Below, piece by piece: positions 8,594 to 54,419 of a stretch of DNA of 64,000 nt. The notes under the pieces were generated by a model that was given only the letters and a program-made list of their open reading frames with translations, made no database searches and had not been told where the DNA came from. The DNA is taken from contig CANNZV010002625.1 in NCBI GenBank assembly GCA_947561585.1, forward strand, positions 26,338 to 90,337, read 5' to 3'. Within the stretch, counting starts at the first letter, position 1, and each line of letters begins with the position of its first letter. Both the position numbers and the translations under genes were made by a program. The DNA comes from Caprella mutica (lineage: Eukaryota; Arthropoda; Malacostraca; Amphipoda; Caprellidae).

Positions 8594-11500
8594 TTCGTAA
8601 CTCTTACGGTAAAGAACATTCGTACAATATCTATTTACAGTCAATACAAATAATATTCCACTAGGGATGAACTCTTACGGAGAAGAACATTCATACAATA
8701 TCTATTTACAGTCAATACAAATAATATTCCACTAGGGATGAACTCTTACGGTAAAGAACATTCGTACAATATCTATTTACAGTCAATACAAATAATATTC
8801 CACTAGGGATGAACTCTTACGATGAAGAACATTCATACAATATCTATTTACAGTCAATACAAATAATATTCCACTAGGGATGAACTCTTACGGAGAAGAA
8901 CATTCATACAATATCTATTTACAGTCAATACAAATAATATTCCACTAGGGATGAACTCTTACGGTAAAGAACATTCGTACAATATCTATTTACAGTCAAT
9001 ACAAATAATATTCCACTAGGGATGAACTCTTACGGTGAAGAACATTCATACAATATCTATTTACAGTCAATACAAATAATATTCCACTAGGGATGAACTC
9101 TTACGGTAAAGAACATTCGTACAATATCTATTTACAGTCAATACAAATAATATTCCACTAGGGATGAACTCTTACGATGAAGAACATTCATACAATATCT
9201 ATTTACAGTCAATATAAATAATATTCCATTAGGGATGAACTCTTACGGTGAAGAACATTCATACAATATCTATTTACAGTCAATACAAATAATATTCCAC
9301 TAGGGATGAACTCTTACGGTGAAGAACATTCATACAATATCTATTTACAGTCAATACAAATAATATTCCACTAGGGATGAACTCTTACGGTAAAGAACAT
9401 TCGTACAATATCTATTTAGAGTCAATACAAATAATATTCCACTAGGGATGAACTCTTACGGTAAAGAACATTCGTACAATATCTATTTACAGTCAATACA
9501 AATAATATTCCACTAGGGATGAACTCTTACGGTGAAGAACATTCATACAATATCTATTTACAGTCAATACAAATAATATTCCACTAGGGATGAACTCTTA
9601 CGATGAAGAACATTCGTACAATATCTATTTACAGTCAATACAAATAATATTCCACTAGGGATGAACTCTTACGGTAAAGAACATTCGTACAATATCTATT
9701 TACAGTCAATACAAATAATATTCCACTAGGGATGAACTCTTACGGTAAAGAACATTCGTACAATATCTATTTACAGTCAATACAAATAATATTCCACTAG
9801 GGATGAACTCTTACGGTGAAGAACATTCATACAATATCTATTTACAGTCAATACAAATATTATTCCTCTAGGGATGAACTCTTACGGTGAGGAACATTCA
9901 TACAATATCTATTTACAGTCAATACAATAATATTCCACTAGGGATGAACTCTTACGATGAAGAACATTCATACAATATCTATTTACAGTCAATACAAATA
10001 AAATTCCACAAGGGATGAACTCTTACGGTGAAGAACATTCATACAATATCTATTTACAGTCAATACAAATAATATTCCACTAGGGATGAACTCTTACGGT
10101 GAAGAACATTCGTACAATATCTATTTACAGTCAATACAAATAATATTCCACTAGGGATGAACTCTTACGGTAAAGAACATTCGTACAATATCTATTTACA
10201 GTCAATACAAATAATATTCCACTAGGGATGAACTCTTACGGTAAAGAACATTCGTACAATATCTATTTACAGTCAATACAAATAATATTCCACTAGGGAT
10301 GAACTCTTACGGTGAAGAACATTCATACAATATCTATTTACAGTCAATACAAATAATATTCCTCTAGGGATGAACTCTTACGGTGAAGAACATTCATACA
10401 ATATCTATTTACAGTCAATACAAATAATATTCCACTAGGGATAAACTCTTACGGTAAAGAACATTCGTACAATATCTATTTACAGTCAATACAAATAATA
10501 TTCCACTAGGGATGAACTCTTACGGTAAAGAACATTCGTACAATATCTATTTACAGTCAATACAAATAATATTCCACTAGGGATAAACTCTTACGGTAAA
10601 GAACATTCGTACAATATCTATTTACAGTCAATACAAATAATGTTCCACTAGGGATGAACTCTTACGGTAAAGAACATTCGTACAATATTTATTTACAGTC
10701 AATACAAATAATATCCCACTAGGGATGAACTCTTACGGTGAAGAACATTCATACAATATCTATTAACAGTCAATACAAATAATATTCCACTAGGGATGAA
10801 CTCTTACGGTGAAGAACATTCATACAATATCTATTTACAGTCAATACAAATAATATTCCACTAGGGATGAACTCTTACGGTAAAGAACATTCGTACAATA
10901 TCTATTTACAGTCAATACAAATAATATTCCACTAGGGATGAACTCTTACGGTAAAGAACATTCGTACAATATCTATTTACAGTCAATACAAATAATATTC
11001 CACTAGGGATGAACTCTTACGGTGAAGAACATTCATACAATATCTATTTACAGTCAATACAAATAATATTCCACTAGGGATGAACTCTTACGATGAAGAA
11101 CATTCGTACAATATCTATTTACAGTCAATACAAATAATATTCCACTAGGGATGAACTCTTACGGTGAAGAACATTCATACAATATCTATTTACAGTCAAT
11201 ACAAATAATATTCCACTAGGGATGAACTCTTACGGTAAAGAACATTCGTACAATATCTATTTACAGTCAATACAAATAATATTCCACTAGGGATGAACTC
11301 TTACGGTAAAGAACATTCGTACAATATCTATTTACAGTCAATACAAATAATATTCCACTAGGGATGAACTCTTACGGTAAAGAACATTCGTACAATATCT
11401 ATTTACAGTCAATACAAATAATATTCCACTAGGGATGAACTCTTACGGTAAAGAACATTCGTACAATATCTATTTACAGTCAATACAAATAATATTCCAC

Positions 11501-11790
11501 TAGGGATGAACTCTTACGGTAAAGAACATTCGTACAATATCTATTTACAGTCAATACAAATACTATTCCACTAGGGATGAACTCTTACGGTAAAGAACAT
11601 TCGTACAATATCTATTTACAGTCAATACAAATAATATTCCACTAGGGATGAACTCTTACGGTGAAGAACATTCATACAATATCTATTTACAGTCAATACA
11701 AATTATATTCCACTAGGGATGAACTCTTACGGTGAAGAACATTCATACAATATTTATTTACACATTATACAAATAATATTCCATGAATGA
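8594..11790. repeat. 71-bp satellite-like array, ~45 copies
   Basis: Units start GATGAACTCTTACGGTGAAG and end ATATTCCACTAGG, at an exact 71-bp spacing (for example 8666, 8737, 8808). Most copies differ at only a few bases. Two linked subtypes alternate: GGTAAAG paired with CATTCGTA, and GGTGAAG/GGAGAAG/GATGAAG paired with CATTCATA, with rare recombinants near 9589, 10090 and 11090. The array is non-coding. Confidence 0.98.
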
Positions 11791-12047
11791 TGAACTCTAG
11801 TCTCAATGTACCTGCCTGTCAGTTCAGTTCAATTGTTTCTTCAGATTTTCTTTTACAGAACGCTCTCCGACTTTTCTTCTCCCCTGCTTCATTTTTGCTC
11901 ATTTCCTTGCCACGGGTATCCCGTCCGTCTAACAATATTCTCTATATTCGTTCTGCCAGATGCATTTTTTCATGTTTTAATTATTATTCCAATGGTACTC
12001 ATATGATAATATAGATGACATATTACTAGATTGTGATTCTGTTCTAA

Positions 12048-12329: not shown

Positions 12330-14620
12330 TGAATTTGATGTGCTTGTCATCACAGAAACTAGAATTTTTTAAGAGGTTTCGAAATGCTTTAAGAAAAAAT
12401 AATCATAGTGGCATTGAATTTGGTGATTTGAATATATTTGAAGAAGCTTGTGACTCTATCGATACGTGAATGGATATTGTACTGTAAAGATAAAAAGATA
12501 ATTGGTTTTAATAAAAATATAATGAACATTTTGAATAACCCTCATTGCGAGAAGAGGAAATTATGGACATGAACTTGATTGATTATTATGATTCTAGTAT
12601 CATTGGAAGAAAGGTTTCTTAATATGCCATCACAGAATTACATCTCTATTATCTGTAAATCAACTAGATTCACTCGTGCTGTCCAACAAAATCACCCATC
12701 CCTTCTGGAGCATATATGGTACAATAAAACAAAAGTAAATTAATCTTCATACTTAATATTTTTAATTCTGATCATTTAACAAAATTCATATTAATGGAAT
12801 ATTCAACTGCGAGTTTCCAAAATTTTGTCCAGATACAATTTCGTGATCATTCTTCGGATAATGTAAAACTTTTTTCCAATTAATGCGCCAGGTGGAAGGA
12901 GAACTCTTCTAAAAACATTGTTGATGAAAGCACTAATTAATTCACTGTAACTGTTATTTACTTAAATTTAATTTAAATGTTTTCTCATTAAGACTAAATT
13001 CATCACGCAACAAAAAATGTGTATACATTGGTTCAATTCTACAATTCTGGAGGCTAGAAGAAGATAGACATATTTTTATAAACGATTTAAAAAAAACATT
13101 TCATTCAATGTTATATCAAAAGATTTAAAAATGATTTCACTTAAACAATTTTTTTAATTTACACTATCAAATACACGGTGTAATTGAAAAAAAAATTAAC
13201 TTAAAACAATCTTTCAAATCAAAAACCACACAATCAATTAGTTATCAAATATTTATATTGCTATTTTACTAATATTGCTAGTAAATTCAAATCGGATAGC
13301 TTTCCTTCGATCAATGATCCGATTTGTAATATGTGTTTTCACATTTTCGATTCATTCTTAAGCCTGTTTCTCAATTACTATTTCTAACAATTTAAAATAT
13401 TCTAGCTATGGGTTATAAGAAATACCCACCAAGATATTTAAAATGAAAATATTGCAACTCTTCCTACCTTTACATTTACTCATTAATGATACAATATTAA
13501 CTAGAGTGTTCCTAACATCTTAGAGAGAGCTGTAAATTATTGTCTGGTCCTGAATGTAATTGGCCAATCTCTATTGTACCCTTAATAGGTAGAATATTTG
13601 GAAAATGTATTCATTATATGTACTTAATTCTTATTTGCCAACGTTCAATGTAATTAGTAGTAACCAGTTTAATTCCAAAAGTGTATAGGTACAACTAATG
13701 CTTTTCAAAACTTTGTTGATCATATTAATCATGAATTTAATTCTAAGAAGAATATTTTTGGAATTTCTATAGACCTAATAAAGGCTTCCATACGGTTAGT
13801 TACGAATTATATCTAAAGGAGCTTCATAGGTACCTAATACAGGATATTTGTCATAATCACTTCCATAACTATCTTGAGGATCGTTCTCAGGGTCTACGAT
13901 TGGGCAGAGCTATTTTTATAACTCAAAATTTGATTTATGGTATACCTCAGGGAAGTGTACTCGGTTCACTACTTTACAACCTCTTCATTAACGATTTAGT
14001 CAATATTTCTCAAAATATTAATGTATCTCTTTTTTTGCAGACGATAACAATGTGGCATTCCGTGACACTTACTATGAATCTTTAGTGAGAAATACAAACT
14101 AATATCTTTTTAAATTATCTGTGTAGAGATTACAAATAAACTTTGTCTTAATACAAATAAAATGAAAAGAGCTGTCATTCACAAACAGTTCTTCAGCCTT
14201 TTTATACCCTTCATTTTGAATTTTGAAAATAACAAATGAAGATCCATAGCTGTGTGAAGTTTTTTGTGTGAATTTGGATTAAAGGTTAAATTTCTCACCT
14301 TCTATTCATTATGTTTGTACAGAAATATCCAAAGCTACTGGAATTGTAGTTTATAAATCTTCACCTTGCAATTATTGATTAATTTGTCCTGTACTTTAAT
14401 TTACCCATAATTTATTTTTTTGTTTGGAGGGAGAAAAATATCACAAATATAATTTATAGTTTACGTAAACGTGCTCATACTGACTCTCTATTTAAAAAAA
14501 ATACCTATCAATGATATCTGTCAAACTATCTACTGAAATACATATGTTTCTAATACAAAATTCAATCTACTCATCCTACTTGACATAACTACATACTAAA
14601 AGAAGTAAAAATATCGATGC
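12330..14620 (+). mobile_element. decayed non-LTR retrotransposon (endonuclease plus reverse transcriptase)
   Basis: Order matches a Jockey/CR1-type ORF2. Endonuclease: EFDVLVITETRIF at 12331-12370, a stretch like INKPTR..TLIDHI near 12640-12720, and SDHLTKF near 12770. Reverse transcriptase: WPISIVPLIGRIFGKCIH at 13561-13614, FVDHINHEFNSKKNIFGISI then DLIKA at 13712-13788, YGIPQGSVLG at 13936-13965, and a FADD box at 14034-14045 in a shifted frame. C-terminal: LCLNTNKMK near 14150 and KRAHTDSLFKK near 14470. Many stops and frameshifts show it is dead. Confidence 0.85.
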
Positions 14621-25300: not shown

Positions 25301-28300
25301 TTAAAATTATAAAGATGCAATACATTTGTTCATGTAAGCTGTTGTTTAACATAACACTTAGAGAAAATAATCCAGTAGCCCATAGATTATCTTTAACAGC
25401 ATTGTAAGTAGGTACATATTCATACCTATATTACATATTTAAGAAATATATTGAATAAACTATATAGATTAACTGTCGTTAGTGAGGTAAATTGTTTCGT
25501 TTGAACAGTTCAGGAGTTCACAATTTATTACTAATAATTAGGGTTGTGACATTTTGTAAGAAAATATGCTCTAAAATTATAAATTCCATGTAATCCTAAG
25601 CGTGATATGAAAAATATTGTGGAGAACCCTTCTAGTTTAGCGATAGGAAGTTCCAATACCCTAAATTTTGATGTTGCTTATAACATTCATGGAGTTTATA
25701 GTTTTAAGAGCATATTTTTACAAAAAAGTCACAACCCTGCTAATAATACACTAGTTACCCCTGCAATAAATTTTCTCTTAAAATAATACACCTACAATGT
25801 TTAAAGGTGAAGTTAGATATCTTCCTTTCAATTTATCATATAATGTAACTATATGCTGAATGAAATAAGGATATGACGATATAATTATCATTGAATTGCA
25901 AAATATTTGAGTTCGTTATATTTTAGTAATATTCATTAAGACGAAATCTATAGACAAAGCATTCATGTCGCCTAGTTGTTGTTCATGGAAAAGCTATCTA
26001 TTTTGTTTCATTTCTTACTTTGGATGCGGAAACGCATAGTAATATACTTAGGAAGTTTAATTCTCAAACTACTGTCTTAAAATTATTAGTATTTAGTATT
26101 TAATACTCAGTCTCAATAAACAAGTTTGAGGTAGAAAGTGATGTAAACAAATTGAGGTTTATGGCCCAGGTTTCTGAAACCAACTTTATAGATTATAATT
26201 ACAGTAGAAATCCTATAAAATAAATGAGTTAGGATGTAGGTACCCCGTAAAGTGAACAAATTTTCTTCAGTCTGCCATAAAATAGCCATCAGTTTTCTAA
26301 AACTTATGTTTCTAGACTTTTTTTTATCGCAGACTAAAGAAAATTTTGTTCACTTTACGGGGTACATTCTAACCTATTAACTATAGAGGAGTTCTACTGC
26401 ACTCGAGAATGTAATTTAGGTGGTGATTAGTTTTTCTCACCATCGGCTTCAGTTGCCTGGTCCATCATATGGCCCTCCAAATCATCAGGGTACAGCGCTG
26501 CCCTTCTCTTGATGTCCTCAACGAAACTGTTTATAAGGGCATCCATCATTACGGCCTGAAAGATAGGAATAGAGTAAGACTTCATGATGAAGAGAATACA
26601 GTTCTCTTTAAAAGATAATATCAGTTCTTCGAAGTAAAAATAGTTTTTTTTCAGTTTTAAAGATAATACCTGCACTGAAAAAAATTGTGAGTCAACCTGA
26701 CTCGTCGCTTGAGTCAAGGCTGGTAAAACTCGAATAATTGAGTCTTTTTTATTGATTGACTCTACCTGAGTCAATCTGACTATGAATTAGGAGTCAAAAT
26801 GACTCTTGTTTTTGAGTAAAGTATTAGGATGAGTCAAATTGACTCACATTTTTGAGCTGGTTTTGGGACAAACTGAAAACTCAAATTTAGATTCAATTTG
26901 ACTCGTATGTTTTCTTCAGTGAGTTCTGTGACATAAAATTATTAAATTCCTTACTAAATATAGTTTCGATAGTTTCTTCAAAATGAGTACGGAGGTATTC
27001 ATTTTTAAATCAGAATCACAAGTGAAATTTGGTATCTTTTGAAGAGATAAATCATCAATTGCTTGCTTATTTTTAGTATTTACCTGTTTAGAGAATATCT
27101 GCAGTACTTTAGAGTATCTCCGCACACCTTCTACTACTGCAAACTGCACGAAAAGGCAGGGCATGGAATCTGAAGACCAATCGGTTGACGGTTGTGCGTA
27201 TTCCCAGGAAAGCTCGTCATACCGGAGAGATAAAAGTATATTCTACGGAAAAAAAGTCATTGTGAAACACTGAATTAGACAATTCATAATTATATAAAAT
27301 ATTGCTGGATGGAATTACAGTTAGCACTTTCAGTCACGGTATAACTTTTATATATTTTTTGTAGTTTTGATAGTCGAACTACGTTACTACGATGGTTGTA
27401 AATAGACTCTAGACAAAATATTATTGCTGACTCAACATTTATATATGAGGCGGTTAGTCAGACTGGCCACGTACTTTCATGCGGAAACAATGATTACACG
27501 CTAATTATGTACATGATATCGCTTGTTTGCAACAACAACATCGTATACACAAAAACATGTATTTTAGAGTAATCTATATAGACATATAAATCATAAAATG
27601 CTGATCATTTTGGTAAAAAGATCATCATTGTAACTCAAAAATATACCGCTAGAAAGACTAAATGTCCTAACGATATACCATTAAATGTACGTACATTACA
27701 AGTACTAAAATGCCTCTCCTGAAAAATAGCTTTTTTGAAGTTATGACACTGTTCTCGCAAACAAGTGATATATGGACCCCATTGCATCACTTTACTAGCT
27801 GATTAAGTCAAGAGTGAACTGTGCATATTTTTTAATTAGGTAATCCTAGTAAGAGCGGTGACTGGAGGGTTTAAATAATTTCATTCACTTTTGTGCAACT
27901 ATTCACTGGCACAAATTATTCGCAATTGTGTAGTAATTCTGTTCTTAATGGTCACTCACCGACTGACTTGGGTCAATGACCGTCAAACCCGCCCCGTTGA
28001 TGGCGATAATGACCGGTAGGTCAGGTCTTGGTAGCCAGAGGGTCATTCCCCGTCTCGGAACCTCTATTTGACCGTGAAAAAAAGCACTCCTGAAAGGTTA
28101 GAAGATGAAAAGTAAATATTTTCAAACATGTTAGTACCCCTCTGTAATGAAATTCTGTTTAGTGAATGTGTGTCCTGAGTAAGAACGTAGCCTCTATAGT
28201 GAACAAATTTCAATCACTAAACAGGACTTCTTTATAGAGGAGTTCTACTGTAGTTATAGTTAATAACAATTCTATTTATCAAAATATTTTATTGAAAAAG

Positions 28301-31300
28301 ATACAATCTATTACATTTAATTTTATTTGAAATACAGGGTTTCTGAATTAGTTCTTTTCTAATTTGTATCTCCAATTAAATTTACCCCAAAAAAGGTGTT
28401 GCATAGGAGTCACTGAAATTGTTCCAAACCAATCATGTCAAACTTGCGATTTTTTATGACAATAATTTTCAATTAAAAACAAAAATTCTCTCTCCGAAAC
28501 TCACCCATAGTACGGAAAAGCCCAGAAAAACTCACCCATAGTACGGCAATGTCCAGCAAAACTCACCCATAGTACGGCAAAGTCCAGCAAAACTCACCCA
28601 TAGTACAGCAAAGTCCAGCAAAATTCACCCATAGTACGATAAAGTCCAGCAAAACTCACCCATAGTTCAGTAAAGTCCAGTAAAACTCACCCATAGTACA
28701 GCAAAGTCCAGTAAAACTCACCCATAGTACGGTAAAGTCCAGTAAAACTCACCCATAGTACGGCAAAGTCCAGTAAACCTCACCCATAGTACGGCATAGT
28801 CCGGCAAAACTCACCCATAGTACGGCAAAGTCCAGTAAAACTCACCCATAGTACGGCAAAGTCTAGCTAAACTCATCCATAGTACGGCAAAGTGCAGCAA
28901 AACTCACCCATAGTACGGCAAAGTCTGGAAAAACTCACCCATAGTACGGCAAAGACCAGAAAAACTCACCCATAGTACGGCAATGTCCAGCAAAACTCAC
29001 CCATAGTACGGCAAAGTCCAGCAAAACTCACCCATAGTACGGCAAAGTCCAGCAAAACTCTTCCATAGTACAGCAAAGTCCAGCAAAATTCACCCATTGT
29101 ACGGTAAAGTCCAGTAAAACTCACCCGTAGTACGGCAAAGTCCAGTAAAACTCACCCGTAGTACGGCAAAGTCCAGTAAAACTCACCCGTAGTACGGTAA
29201 AGTCCAGTAAAACTCACCCGTAGTACGGCAAAGTCCAGTAAAACTCACCCGTAGTACGGCAAAGTCCAGTAAAACTCACCCGTAGTACGGCAAAGTCCAG
29301 TAAAACTCACCCGTAGTACGGCAAAGTCCAGTAAAACTCACCCGTAGTACGGCAAAGTCCAGTAAAACTCACCCATAGTACGGCAAAGTCCAGCAAAACT
29401 CCAGGTATTTCCTAGCCAGTTTTCGACACTGCACGTTGTTGGGTATCGACCGGTACTGCTCAATAATCCTAATTTCGGGGCAGCTCTTGCTGCTAAAACT
29501 AATCAGATCAGCGAGTTTTAACCGACACACGTTATCTGGGAGGTAATCTAGTAGACGACGTCTGAAAATTAGAAAGCGGAGTGTTAGAGAGAATTGAAAT
29601 TGAAATGAATTGGTTTGAGTTTAAATGCAAGGAAAGAATTACTTCGTGAAATAAACTGTCCAATGTATGTAAATAAATAAAGTTAGTCAAAGGCTTAAAC
29701 AAGCTCTAAGTACAAAATAATTAGTTAGTGTTGTGAATAAAAGTTGGTGAAGATCATTAAAAAGTTTGATAATTAAGATGATGCCTGACAGAAGTATCAT
29801 TGTTATCAATTTTGTTATTGTTTCATGTGTTTCATCATGGCAATAATAACTAGGAACTCATCCTAATGATATCTTCGAGAAACCTTTGATATTTTGAAAC
29901 ATAATTGTACCTTTAGACACTTAATGGCAAAATTAAAAACTTAATTTTATCTCTATCCATTAAAACGTATTGATAATTTTGAAAACCTATTGACTTTTTC
30001 GAAAGCCTAAATGACATTCGCAAAATCCTATGTGACATTTTGAAATCTTAGATTACATTTTGAAGCTTATATTACATTTTCGAAAGCTTAGATTACATTT
30101 TCGAAAGCTTATATTACATTTTCGAAAGCTTAGATTACATTTTCGAAAGCTCGGATTACATTTTCGAAAGCTTAGATCACATTTTCGAAAGCTTAGATTA
30201 CATTTTCGAAAGCTTAGATTACATTTTCGAAAGCTTAGATTACATTTTCGAAAGCTTAGATTACATTTTCGAAAGCTTAGATTACATTTTCGAAAGCTTA
30301 GATTACATTTTCGAAAGCTTAGATTACATTTTCGAAAGCTTAGATTACATTTTCGAAAGCTTAGATTACATTTTCGAAAGCTTAGATTACATTTTTGAAA
30401 GCTTAGATTACATTTTAGAAAGCTTAGATTACATTTTCGAAAGCCTAATGACGTTTTAAAAATCCTAAATGACATTTTTGAAACTTCAATGATATTTTCG
30501 TAAACCCATAAAGCCTTTCAACAGCCTAAATAACAATATTTCAAATACCCATTCCCCCACCCCTCACCGAAAGAAAGAAGGCGTGTGCGTGTTGTGATCG
30601 TAAGGCCCCAACTCCAGTCTCGCCTGAATCCCAGCCAACATTTCGTTGTCGGAAGACTCGCAGGGGTACCTCGCCGTGAGCAGGTTCCACTTTGCCTCTT
30701 CGTAGAGAAGTTCTAAAATTTTACAGTCTCTGCAATGAAAAGTGATGTTAGTATGAAAAAACAACCATCTTAATGCTCTAAAAAATGATAGTCTTAATGA
30801 CTGTGATAAGGGTGACCGGTCCTTTCGCCGAAAACCCTATCGTCGATAACCATTTCGCCGAAAACAACTTCGCCGCATGACACGTTCGCCGAATGACACT
30901 TCTGCCGAAAATTTAAAAAAAAAACAGTATACGTTATAAATATAAAGAGATATAGTCCATCTAAGGTTAGGTTAGCGGTCCGATTGGAAGGGAAGTGTCG
31001 TTCGGCGAATGTGTTTTCGGCGAAAGGACCTATAAAACCGATCAAGACCGGTTTTGATTATTCTAATTTCTGTATCTTCAAATATTTCATTGTACGTATT
31101 TAGAAAAATATTGGAGATTAAATTCGAGTGACATAAAAGTTTTACCTCCAATCATTTTTGTGAAATTAGTAGGGTTGTGACAATATGTTTTTATAATCCT
31201 ATAGATCCGAAGACGATCATAGAAATAAAATGGTATCGAATACTCTATTCCGCTGGTGTAGAAGAACGATTCATACAGTTTAATTCTCTCCGTCTATAAT

Positions 31301-37469: not shown

Positions 37470-38790
37470 GTCTTATTCATATTTTCAATGTGAAAATGAA
37501 AGTAAAATAATATTGATGCATCATTTTTCATTAGGATATTACATTAAAATCAAAATATTAATAATATCAATTAAAATATATAATTATATTAAATTTATAT
37601 TTTTAATCATTAAATTATATAAAATTATGTTATGCAAACAATTTTTAGATTAACTTTTATTCGTTATTAAATTATTGTTTATAAACTTTTTTCACATTAA
37701 TTTTATTGGTTAATGCAGCAAAGAGAAATATATTTAATATCAAAGTTAATAATTAACTTTTAAGTTCTAAAATAAATATTTTTTATATGCACAAAAATTG
37801 ATATATAATTTTTAAAAAATACTGATGAATCATTTCTCAAGAATATTCATAATTTCTTTTAAAGTTTAATTTAGAAAAAATTGATATTAAAATAAGAAAT
37901 AAACTACAACTCATATTAAAATTCAAACTGCAGCTGGTATGCTCATCACATATTTTATAAATTAAACACGAAGCAACTTTTTAAACTAATATTTAAAATT
38001 ATTTAATGAATATCATTTAATACTTCTTCATCAAATATATATGAATATAATATATTCAAAAGCATCAAACATTAATAAAATTCAATGAACTTTCCCGTTT
38101 CTGCAATTTTTTATCTCAAAAGGACCTCACTTTTACCATGGAAAACAGGACCTATCAACTATTTACTTCTCAAAATAAAGACACTATCTGAATTTGTTTA
38201 AAAACAAAGAGTCCGCCATTTCTTCAGAAGTTAGATTGCACAAAGTTTATGTGAAGTAAAGAGAGAATTTTAAATGAGGAGATACCGACCGCTACGGTGC
38301 TGTAAAATGGCGATACGTTAGCAACAAATAATGTTAAATATATACCATTTAAATGTTATTCTGAATACTAGTTATGGGATTGAGAAATCGAAAAGATGAC
38401 TATATTTATTTCTCAATTTGAACGAATAGACCAATCACGATCTTCCCTGTGTATTTGATATTTATTTCTAATATTGTAAATAATATAAGATATAACAAGA
38501 AATGGAATATAAAAACATCAATTCATAGACTCATACAATTGCAATGTAATTTACAGCATCTACATCAAAAATTACTGAAAAATATGCCTTTCAAATTTTA
38601 GATTTCTCCCTACCAAAATAAATCTATTTGATCTATTAAAAAATCTTCATATATTCTGTATATAATAATTTAAAGGTACTAGAATATATATTTAATTACC
38701 ATACCTAATTTCAGTATAATCAATCCAAGAAAAAGGTACACAGAATTAATTAAATACAAACAACTGTTAATCGTATATTCTTAAATAAAC
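37470..38790. other. very A+T-rich spacer
   Basis: No gene or organised repeat seen. Confidence 0.4.
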
Positions 38791-38799
38791 AGACGAAAA

Positions 38800-38960
38800 A
38801 TTAATGAAGAGTAGAAGTAATGAATTAATTCTCAACTGTATGGGAATACTACCAATCGAAACTAATAAAATAGAAAACAATGTAACTATCGTACCTGTTG
38901 TTCCCCAGGGAAGTGTATTAGGGCTCTACTATTTTTACTCTTCACTAAATAGAAATAAGA
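38800..38960 (+). mobile_element. reverse-transcriptase scrap of a non-LTR element
   Basis: VPVVPQGSVLG at 38891-38923 is the conserved RT block (V/I)PQGSVLGP. No FADD box or other domain could be found, so this is a short, dead remnant. Confidence 0.6.
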
Positions 38961-39074
38961 TTCTCATAGAGCTGTATTTTTTTCTCACGATGATTCAGCT
39001 TAAAGATTAAATTAACGAAAATATTCAATGGAAACTTTGAAAGTAAAATTCTGTACCTATTTTTACAATTTGAA

Positions 39075-44274: not shown

Positions 44275-45640
44275 ACTGTTACAGTCTCTTGTCACTATGT
44301 CACAGTCTATTGTCACTCTGTTACAGTCTCTTGCCACTCTGTTACAGTCTCTTGCCACTCTGTTACAGTCTCTTGTCAGTCTGTTACAGTCTCTTGTCAG
44401 TCTGTTACAGTCTATTGTCACTCTGTTACAGTCTCTTGTCACTATGTTACAGTCTCTTGTCACTATGTTACAGTCTCTTGTCACTATGTCACAGTCTCTT
44501 GTCACTCTGTTACAGTCTCTTGTCACTATGTTACAGTCTCTTGTCACTCTGTTATAGTCTCTTGTCACTCTGTTACAGTCTCTTGTCACTCTGTTACATT
44601 CTCTTGTCACTCTGTTGCAGTCTCTTCTCACTATGTCACAGTCTCTTGTCACTATGTTACAGTCTTTTGTCACTCTGTTTCAGTCTCTTGTCACTCTGTT
44701 ACAGTCTCTTGTCACTATGTTACAGTCTCTTGTCACTCTGTTACAGTCTCTTGTCACTCTGTTACAGTCTCTGTCACTCTGTTACAGTCTCTTGCCACTC
44801 TGTTACAGTCTGTTGCCACTCTGTTACAGTCTCTTGTCAGTCTGTTACAGTCTCTTGTCAGTCTGTTACAGTCTCTTGTCACTCTGTTACAGTCTCTTGT
44901 CACTCTGTTACAGTCTCTTGTCACTATGTTACAGTCTCTTGTCACTATGTTACAGTCTCTTGTCACTATGTCACAGTCTCTTGTCACTCTGTTACAGTCT
45001 CTTGTCAGTCTGTTACAGTCTATTGTCACTCTGTTACAGTCTCTTGTCACTATGTTACAGTCTCTTGTCACTCTGTTACATTCTCTTGTCACTCTGTTAC
45101 AGTCTCTTCTCACTATGTCACAGTCTCTTGTCACTATGTTACAGTCTTTTGTCACTCTGTTTCAGTCTCTTGTCACTCTGTTACAGTCTCTTGTCACTCT
45201 GTTACAGTCTCTTGTCACTATGTCACAGTTTCTTGTCACTCTGTTACAGTCTCTTGTCACTCTGTTACAGTCTCTTGTCACTCTGTTACAGTCTCTTGTC
45301 ACACTGTTACAGTCTCTTGTCACTCTGTTACAGTCTCTTGTCACTCTGTTACAGTCTCTTGTCACTCTGTTACAGTCTCTTGTCACTCTGTTACAGTCTC
45401 TTGTCTTTCTGTTACAGTCTCTTGTCACTATGTCACAGTTTCTTGTCACTCTGTTACAGTCTCTTGTCATTCTGTTACAGTCTCTTGTCATTCTGTTACA
45501 GTCTCTTGTCACTGTTACAGTCTCTTGTCACTCTGTTACAGTCTCTTGTCACTCTGTTACAGTATCTTGTCACTCTGTTACAGTCTCTTGTCAATCTGTT
45601 ACAGTCTCTTGTCACTCTGTTACAGTCTCTTGTCACTCTA
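44275..45640. repeat. 21-bp minisatellite with higher-order repeat, ~65 copies
   Basis: Unit CAGTCTCTTGTCACTCTGTT plus A, with CACTAT, CAGTCT and GCCACT variants. Blocks of variants recur about 461-482 bp apart (TTGCCACT pair at 44330 and 44791; CACTATGTCACAG at 44629 and 45111), so 22-23 units form a higher-order unit. Open frames of over 470 codons on the plus strand are artefacts. Confidence 0.97.
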
Positions 45641-47170: not shown

Positions 47171-47171
47171 A

Positions 47172-49700
47172 CAGTGGCCGATATGACACAGTAGCCGATA
47201 TGACACAGTAGCCGATATGACACAGTAGCCGATATGACACAGTAGCCGATATGACACAGTAACCGATATGACACAGTAACCGATATGACACAGTAACCGA
47301 TATGACACAGTAACCGATATAACACAGTAGCAGATATGACACAGTAGCCGATATGACACAGTAGCAGATATGACACAGTAGCCGATATGACACAGTAGCC
47401 GATATGACACACTAGCCGATATGACACAGTAGCCGATATGACACAGTAGCCGATATGACACAGTAGCCGATATGACACAGTAGCCGATATGACATAGTAG
47501 CCGATATGACACAGTAGCCGATATGACACCGTAGCCGATATGAAACAGTAGCCGATATGACACAGTAGCAGATATGACACAGTAGCCGATATGACACAGT
47601 AGCAGATATGACACAGTAGCCGATATGACACAGTAGCCGATATGACACACTAGCCGATATGACACAGTAGCCGATATGACACAGTAGCCGATATGACACA
47701 GTAGCCGATATGACACAGTAGCCGATATGACACAGTAACCGATATGACACAGTAGCCGATATGACACAGTAGCCGATATGACACAGTAGCCAATATGACA
47801 CAGTAGCCGATATGACATAGTAGCCGATTTGACACAGTAGCCGATATGACACAGTAGCCGATATGACACAGTAGCCGATATGACACAGTAGCCAATATGA
47901 CACAGTAGCCGATATGACATAGTAGCCGATATGACACAGTAGCTGATATGACACAGTAGCTGATATGACACACTAGCCGATATGACACAGTAGCCGATAT
48001 GACACAGTAGCCGATGTGACACAGTAGCTGATATGACACAGTAGCCGATATGACACAGTAGCCGATATGACACAGTAGCCGATATGACACAGTAGCCGAT
48101 ATGACATAGTAGCCGATATGACACAGTAGCCGATATGACACAGTAGCCGATATGACACAGTAGCCGATATGACATAGTAGCCGATATGACACAGTAGCCG
48201 ATATGACACAGTAGCCGATATGACACAGTAGCCGATGTGACACAGTAGCTGATATGACACAGTAGCCGATATGACACAGTAGCCGATATGACACAGTAGC
48301 CGATGTGACACAGTAGCTGATATGACACAGTAGCCGATATGACACAGTAGCCGATATGACACAGTAGCTGATATGACACAGTAGCCGATATGACACAGTA
48401 GCCGATGTGACACAGTAGCTGATATGACACAGTAGCCGATATGACCCAGTAGCCTATATGACACAGTAGCTGATATGACACAGTAGCCGATGTGACACAG
48501 TAGCCGATATGACACAGTGGCCGATGTGACACAGTAGCCAATATGACACAGTAGCCGATATGACATAGTAGCCGATATGACACAGTAGCCGATATGACAC
48601 AGTAGCCGATATGACACAGTAGCCGATATGACACAGTAGCCAATATGACACAGTAGCCGATATGACATAGTAGCCGATATGACACAGTAGCTGATATGAC
48701 ACAGTAGCTGATATGACACAGTAGCCGATATGACACAGTAGCCGATATGACACAGTAGCCGATGTGACACAGTAACTGATATGACACAGTAGCTGATATG
48801 ACACAGTAGCCGATATGACACAGTAGCCGATATGACACAGTAGCTGATATGACACAGTAGCCGATATGACACAGTAGCCGATATGACACAGTAGCTGATA
48901 TGACACAGTAGCCGATATGACCCAGTAGCCGATATGACACAGTAGCTGATATGACACAGTAGCCGATATGACACAGTAGCCGATGTGACACAGTAGCTGA
49001 TATGACACAGTAGCCGATATGACCCAGTAGCCGATATGACACAGTAGCCGATATGACCCAGTAGCCGATATGACACAGTAGCTGATATGACACAGTAGCC
49101 GATATGACACAGTAGCCGATGTGACACAGTAGCTGATATGACACAGTAGCCGATATGACCCAGTAGCTGATATGACACAGTAGCCGATGTGACACAGTAG
49201 CTGATATGACACAGTAGCCGATATGACACAGTAGCCGATATGACACAGTAGCCGATATGACACAGTAGCCGATGTGACACAGTAGCCGATATGACACAGT
49301 AGCCGATGTGACACAGTAGCTGATATGACACAGTAGCCGATATGACACAGTAGCCGATATGACACAGTAGCCGATATGACACAGTAGCCGATATGACACA
49401 GTAGCCGATGTGACAAAGTAGCTGATATGACACAGTAGCCGATATGACACAGTAGCTGATATGACACAGTAGCTGATATGACACAGTAGCCGATATGACA
49501 CAGTAGCTGATATGACACAGTAGCTGATATGACACAGTAGCCGATGTGACACAGTAGCTGATATGACACAGTAGCCGATATGACACAGTAGCCGATATGA
49601 CACAGTAGCCGATGTGACACAGTAGCTGATATGACACAGTAGCTGATATGACACAGTAGCTGATATGACACAGTAGCTGATATGACACAGTAGCCGATAT
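47172..49700. repeat. 17-bp minisatellite, ~148 copies (2.5 kb)
   Basis: Unit CAGTAGCCGATATGACA; common variants are AGCTGAT, GATGTGA and CAGTAACC. The minus strand is open for up to 833 codons, because 17 bp read in three frames makes one stop-free 17-residue repeat. It runs directly into the 34-bp array at 49.7 kb. Confidence 0.98.
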
Positions 49701-49704
49701 GATC

Positions 49705-54142: not shown

Positions 54143-54202
54143 ATGAATCAGGAAATTTTATTAGATGGGTCAAGAGGAAGAAAGTTTGTTAATGTTAAGC
54201 AG
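54143..54202 (+). CDS. speculative exon ending in a tandemly repeated splice donor
   Basis: ATG AAT CAG... gives MNQEILLDGSRGRKFVNVKQ directly followed by GTAAGTG, a perfect consensus donor. A second frame across the same DNA (reading KLTLKLWQTCRENESGNF) is also open, so coding is uncertain. There is no recognisable family or downstream exon. Confidence 0.2.
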
Positions 54203-54395
54203 GTAAGTGTGCTAGTACACAGGTAAGTGTGTTAGTACACAGGTAAGTGTGTTAGTACACAGGCAAGTGTGTTAGTACACAGGCAAGTGTGTTAGTACAC
54301 AGGTAAGTGTGTTAGTACACAGGTAAGTGTGTTAGTACACAGGTAAGTGTGTTAGTACACAGGTAAGTGTGTTAGTACACAGGTAAGTGTGTAAG
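54200..54395 (+). repeat. 20-bp minisatellite, 10 copies, each with a consensus 5' splice site
   Basis: Unit CAGGTAAGTGTGTTAGTACA. Donor-like CAG/GTAAGT occurs at 54200, 54220, 54240, 54300, 54320, 54340, 54360 and 54380; 54260 and 54280 are CAG/GCAAGT, which is also a valid GC-type donor. Confidence 0.96.
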
Positions 54396-54419
54396 TAAAA
54401 ATAAATGTATAGTAGATAA

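Follow-up and report, generated by a model that had tools for sequence, protein, structure and literature searches.

The end of an FRMD8 exon in the amphipod Caprella mutica, together with its 5' splice site, forms the first copy of a long tandem array. Very probably this array is an ordinary minisatellite that was founded across the exon end, with the first donor in use and the other donors being decoys carried along as neutral passengers. In the analysed window, which comprises 64,000 nucleotides of contig CANNZV010002625.1, TRF places the array at positions 28497-29401 with a period of 31, 29.2 copies, 92% matches, and 0% indels, and its score of 1439 far exceeds what chance would produce. 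A unit-by-unit cut yields 28 full 31-bp units (28505..29372, minus strand; consensus GTGAGTTTTRCTGGACTTTGCCGTACTAYGG), each starting at a donor position and corresponding to the final 29 nt of exon sequence with GT added. Read along the minus strand, the terminal 29 nt of the exon (29373..29401; GAGTTT...TATGG, in the codons for LEFCWTLPYYG), taken as the founder copy, are followed by the 28 units from 29372 to 28505 and by a last donor at 28504. The authentic donor GTGAGT (29367..29372, minus strand) sits in the first repeat, as the exon's terminal 29 nt together with the GT make up the first copy, and a final donor-like GTGAGT (28499..28504, minus strand) marks the 3' edge of the array.

This arrangement creates 29 donor positions, the exon's own and 28 later ones. 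GT is kept at 27 of the 29 (26 of the 28 later positions), the exceptions being positions 11 (AA) and 17 (AT). The full GTGAGT occurs at 24 of the 29 including the authentic site, which leaves 23 full-strength decoys among the 28; positions 10 and 25 read GTGAAT and position 20 reads GTGAGG. A first-pass annotation of this DNA had rightly described a 31-bp tandem array of exon end and donor, and its figure of about 27 intact GT donors holds for all sites taken together; as a number of decoys it is slightly too high, because one GT site is authentic and 26 remain. With these 26 GT decoys, 23 of them carrying GTGAGT, its picture of many near-identical sites presented to U1 is justified. The unit length of 31 bp is indeed not a multiple of three, and the frame translation agrees with the earlier statement that TGA comes next once the first donor has been passed. 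The immediate TGA appears in the translations for decoy choices 2, 3, 4, 28, and 29, and it applies to the remaining choices because all share the same start past donor 1. All six matches in a DNA search of this one assembly with 202 bp of the array lie at the FRMD8 locus, and the copy number given here is likewise that of one assembly (903 Mb, 7200 contigs).

The affected gene is represented in the window by ten minus-strand exons from 33314 down to 22283, located by tblastn with three relatives as queries; the numbering refers to these ten, and the match to the tenth is weak (15 residues, E 8.5e-4, with P0002 as query). The exon that precedes the array (189 nt; 29373..29561, minus strand) is the fifth and belongs to the FERM_M region. 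Frame and homology place the following exon (SAFFHGQIE...) at 27960..28089 on the minus strand, with a TTTCAG acceptor immediately ahead. Frames are open in all matched exons, and splice signals are canonical at the borders inspected (all but those of the last two exons). Across the junction 29373/28089 the predicted protein reads LPYYG-SAFFHGQIE, which agrees with the three relatives (LPYYGSAFFYGQIE, LPYYGSAFFHGQIE, and LPYYGSAFFHGQIE). The exon number, the exon end in the conserved LPYYG plus donor, and the start of the next exon at 28089 had all been proposed before, and were confirmed here by frame and homology. The same applies to the identity of the gene: the best two relatives among the matches listed are P0001 from the isopod Idotea baltica (75% identity over 88% of the query) and P0002 (68% identity over 94%). 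In total 165 relatives were found; among the 120 listed, PF00373 is present in nearly all and PF24522 in most, and FERM domain-containing protein 8 is the name given to many of those that have one. A 106-residue fragment taken alone stays below both Pfam cut-offs, and the top PDB matches are KRIT1. By homology the gene is thus a member of FRMD8 (FERM, KRIT1/FRMD8 C-lobe), with the FERM_M and C-lobe assignments coming through the relatives. When the whole assembly (903 Mb) was searched with 281 residues, six candidates were obtained, of which five proved to be matches, and these five lie without exception at the FRMD8 locus. Four of the five matching stretches contain stop codons, and their coordinates show that the stretches extend past the exon ends into the introns, and the stops fall in these intronic parts. 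As the five matches fall at one locus, FRMD8 seems to be single copy, and it appears to be intact.

The terminal 29 nt of the exon also suggest how the array may have arisen. GAGTTT begins 29 nt ahead of the junction, and the intron behind the last copy begins with GTGAGTTTCGG; GAGTTT is therefore found in the exon and again at the intron start, as two words 31 bp apart. Replication slippage or unequal exchange between these two words probably produced the first duplicate, so that the founding unit of a minisatellite would have happened to cover the exon end and the donor, and the array would then have grown through duplication of units and blocks. The 29 nt of the exon are identical to units 11, 12, and 26 and show two or three differences to units 1-9. 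Because coding constraint acts on the exon, units that resemble it were taken as nearest to the founder. No difference separates units 1-5, and units 1-8 are almost uniform (unit 6 is one base off); C at unit position 29 is confined to units 1-8, and A at unit position 10 is shared by units 1-9 and five later units. These near-identical exon-proximal units (units 1-9, 29094..29372, minus strand) are read as the youngest expansion. The more diverged units 10-28 (28505..29093, minus strand) carry the pattern of a block duplication: unit 10 equals unit 25, unit 12 equals 26, unit 13 equals 27, and units 14 and 28 differ by two bases. Among the offsets of 4 to 19 units that were compared, 14 and 15 gave the best self-match, and the block 14-15 units away is read as an older block duplication. 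This structure also bears on the question whether the length of the array is an artefact of the assembly, produced by collapse or false expansion. Identical and near-identical units such as 1-5 and 1-8 are the situation in which assemblers miscount, and the assembly consists of 7200 contigs. However, false expansion would not invent the many private differences and the block structure of units 10-28, and we regard an artefactual length as very improbable indeed.

That a minisatellite should lie across a donor is less surprising in the light of its surroundings. Tandem repeats account for 33% of the bases of the window and, in 12 other loci that were chosen for repeated donor words (ten plus two from separate word counts) and measure about 9 kb each, for 35% of the sequence, or 29% once the chosen arrays are excluded. 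After merging, TRF arrays of at least three copies number 34 in the window, and their founder units correspond to about 1.9% of its non-array sequence. From this per-site figure follows, by our own arithmetic and if arrays start anywhere, a chance of about 16% that an array falls on one or more of the nine FRMD8 donors. Given the high minisatellite density of the window, arrays should occasionally come to lie across a donor by accident; the notable part is its growth to 28 units while the frames of FRMD8 stayed open. The window also contains several very long arrays (47171-49702, 17 bp, 149 copies; 8599-11798, 71 bp, 45 copies; 44276-45639, 21 bp, 65 copies), and an array of 23 copies of a 21-bp unit occupies 29996-30483 in the FRMD8 intron that precedes exon 5. 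In a scan of the window against Rfam, all families stayed below their gathering scores, and ARAGORN detected no tRNA there. Two open frames, at 13747-14082 and 38789-39007 on the plus strand, contain a PQGSVLG stretch, which we take to resemble the reverse transcriptase of non-LTR retrotransposons.

In the TRF arrays with at least three copies, a strict donor motif on either strand occurs in two consensus units, those of the FRMD8 array and of a second array at 54200-54397 (plus strand; TRF, 9.9 copies of the 20-bp unit CAGGTAAGTGTGTTAGTACA). The latter lies directly behind a 20-codon open frame with an ATG at about 54143. It was dismissed as a second amplified exon end, as no gene was recognised there and similar CAGGTAAGT arrays start without an exon recognisable by eye. 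If donor sites were preferred seeds of array formation in this genome, the FRMD8 array would be one case of a general process. Counts of triples seem to favour this idea: at 14-44 base spacing, CAGGTAAGT occurs in 1252 triples and its reversed word in 64, and the counts for CAGGTGAGT are 1739 and 108. Single occurrences of CAGGTAAGT outnumber those of the reversed word only by 7739 to 5361, and CAGGTAAGT is also the word repeated in the second window array. In tandem arrays CAGGTAAGT and CAGGTGAGT are thus 16-20 times commoner than the reversed words, to which dispersed families contribute. However, overlapping triples were counted and dispersed families inflate the counts, and the word of the FRMD8 array itself, TGGGTGAGT, gave only 177 against 105 at a narrower spacing of 24-39 bases. 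In addition, none of the 12 loci showed an exon end recognisable by eye at the start of the array, and one of them (L047) resembles repetitive coding sequence. Preferred seeding at donors is therefore highly doubtful, and the excess was not accepted as proof of a genome-wide donor-seeded amplification, given the overlapping triples, the dispersed families, and the lack of recognisable exon ends in the fetched arrays. One dispersed family is exemplified by AGCACAGGAGACAGGTGAGT, which was found on contigs C30, C35, C38, and C79. At another locus (L046), two 22-bp CAGGTAAGT arrays lie 3.7 kb apart (at 1183 and 4906, both on the turned strand) and agree in their printed upstream and downstream flanks, as if a larger block had been duplicated. 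Kinases had been considered as a sample of exons for arrays at their ends, and were dropped because a number of the matches lie in long frames of bacterial appearance. Running for 600-1500 codons without a stop, the frames around these matches suggest that bacterial contigs are present in the assembly.

If the decoys had a function, their donor bases might be expected to differ from the rest of the unit in conservation. Changes were found in 6 of 168 cells in the six donor columns and in 46 of 700 cells in the other 25 columns, where columns 10 and 29 hold 22 of the 46 changes. Six columns drawn at random were as conserved or more so with P = 0.38 (20,000 draws), and runs of changes per column amount to 1.0 in donor columns versus 1.16 elsewhere. 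The donor bases are thus about as variable as the remainder of the unit, and selection on the decoys finds no support. The column permutation, which has little power with 28 related units, gives no sign of either preservation or purging of donors, and the relatedness of the units makes it a weak test of neutrality. In the favoured reading the decoys would be carried along neutrally, though their copy number may have a slight effect on output, as is reported for human F7.

The F7 gene offers the closest comparison. Original work on the minisatellite in its intron 7 is reportedly that of Marchetti in 1992, Pinotti in 2000, and Borensztajn in 2006. That the array in FRMD8 is an unprecedented system is less well supported in view of this human minisatellite, which is described with the same layout. 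According to two reviews, the F7 donor is located in the first of a series of 37-bp repeats and only the most upstream donor is used (PMC6627357), and four to seven repeats are described, whose number correlates directly with the relative mRNA level (PMC3492156). Both genes have their own donor in the first of highly similar repeats of 37 and 31 bp, respectively. In contrast to the four to seven repeats described for F7, FRMD8 has 28 units plus the exon copy, and the hosts are a mammal and a crustacean. First-donor use is reported for F7 and inferred for FRMD8. Variation in copy number belongs to the F7 report, whereas the FRMD8 array is known from one assembly, and the likeness is one of description rather than of compared sequences. 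Donor-like sites in the later F7 repeats may be deduced from their being called highly homologous, whereas the array in FRMD8 keeps 26 of 28 GT. By this analogy, a donor-spanning minisatellite is of a kind already known, and its size and the crustacean host are what is new.

The protein and the frame suggest which donor is needed: by frame and homology, a full-length protein would require the donor at 29372. Strength alone would not select it, because decoys 2-9 are predicted to pair better with U1. With the U1 5' end, the predicted pairing energy is -10.4 kcal/mol for the first donor, -12.0 for decoys 2-9, and -10.4 for 15 others, with five weaker. Predicted accessibility over 80 nt is 0.026 for donor 1 versus 0.0002-0.0035 for decoys 2-9, with several later decoys equally or more open; over 150 nt, donors 1-9 are all near zero, and accessibility was given no weight in the argument. 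By analogy with F7, the first donor (29372) is probably used here too. The spliceosome would take this site as the first to be transcribed, the one that gives an exon of ordinary size (189 nt), and the only one that avoids the stop; the last decoy would stretch the exon to more than 1 kb. The decoys would then be removed along with the intron; if one of them were chosen on rare occasions, the message would carry an immediate stop and likely be lost to nonsense-mediated decay. Recursive splicing, which had been listed among the possible outcomes, is unlikely. The first 870 nt of the intron, which correspond to the array, contain only three YAG sites, the best of them preceded by 8 pyrimidines in 14 nt, and no acceptor adjoins the donor within the unit.

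Effective competition by the decoys would have other consequences. A large share of FRMD8 transcripts would be spliced downstream and degraded by nonsense-mediated decay, and longer alleles would give less protein. Besides the stronger pairing of decoys 2-9 and the TGA right after the first donor, this idea draws on engineered transcripts: two U1 particles were detected together on one that carries an additional U1 site (PMC8724738), and duplicated 3' splice sites are said to resemble U1 binding in this respect (PMC5389562). These transcripts are like the FRMD8 array in carrying more than one strong site, which in their case are occupied simultaneously, and unlike it in having two sites, with an added U1 site or 3' splice sites instead of competing donors (PMC8724738, PMC5389562). 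A natural case is DOK7 intron 4, where a pair of close donors 11 nt apart competes, one of them gives a truncated protein, and SRSF1 promotes splicing at the downstream donor, the stronger of the pair (PMC5585400). It differs from FRMD8 in that the two donors are of unequal strength and regulated by SRSF1, and do not form a tandem repeat (PMC5585400). The SRSF1 shift in DOK7 and the double binding of U1 argue against a simple rule by which the first donor wins. A minisatellite tied to splicing decisions is also CeRep25B of C. elegans, which occurs near alternative splicing regions; unlike the FRMD8 unit, its motifs are intronic, and a repeated exon donor goes unmentioned in the abstract (PMC4039745). 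However, effective competition by the decoys is very unlikely: the F7 precedent uses the most upstream donor only, more F7 repeats are linked to more mRNA and not to less, and FRMD8 appears single copy and intact.

The decoys could instead be of use to the gene without being spliced. By binding U1 snRNP, they might aid recognition of the first donor or block premature poly(A) cleavage, and their copy number would tune FRMD8 output. Shortly behind the array, still within the intron, three AATAAA/ATTAAA words are found on the minus strand (28293-28327), at 28327, 28321, and 28293; the first donor is about 1.05-1.08 kb away from them and the last one 177-211 nt. Protection by U1 is put at about 1 kb, and intronic pseudo-donors are proposed to lengthen this range (PMC3826338); for F7 intron 7, the mRNA level is stated to go along with the repeat number (PMC3492156). 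However, conservation of the donor bases does not exceed that of the remaining unit, a GC content of 32% would be expected to yield AATAAA-like words by chance, and tandem arrays are frequent at every sampled place. A protective or tuning role of this kind appears unlikely. Its most specific form, a copy-number dial in which 23 full-strength decoys load U1, silence the poly(A) signals of the intron, and keep donor 1 dominant so that FRMD8 output follows the repeat number, is more improbable still. If it were true, many genes in a minisatellite-rich genome would carry such dials and provide natural length series, which could test first-donor scanning against multiple U1 occupancy.

For an ordinary minisatellite across an exon end, the locus bears on donor choice itself. 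For a run of equal donors, two kinds of model are opposed, since scanning or exon definition would favour the first donor, whereas multiple U1 occupancy, according to what is reported of work by Eperon, could favour the donor nearest the acceptor. A downstream-favouring rule would predict mostly stop-bearing FRMD8 messages. FRMD8 of C. mutica thus represents a natural test with 29 positions in an intact-looking gene, in which the choice of any but the first donor would easily be read as a stop-bearing message. With about one third of the sampled DNA in tandem repeats, the genome of this amphipod suggests a routine tolerance of repeats across splice sites.
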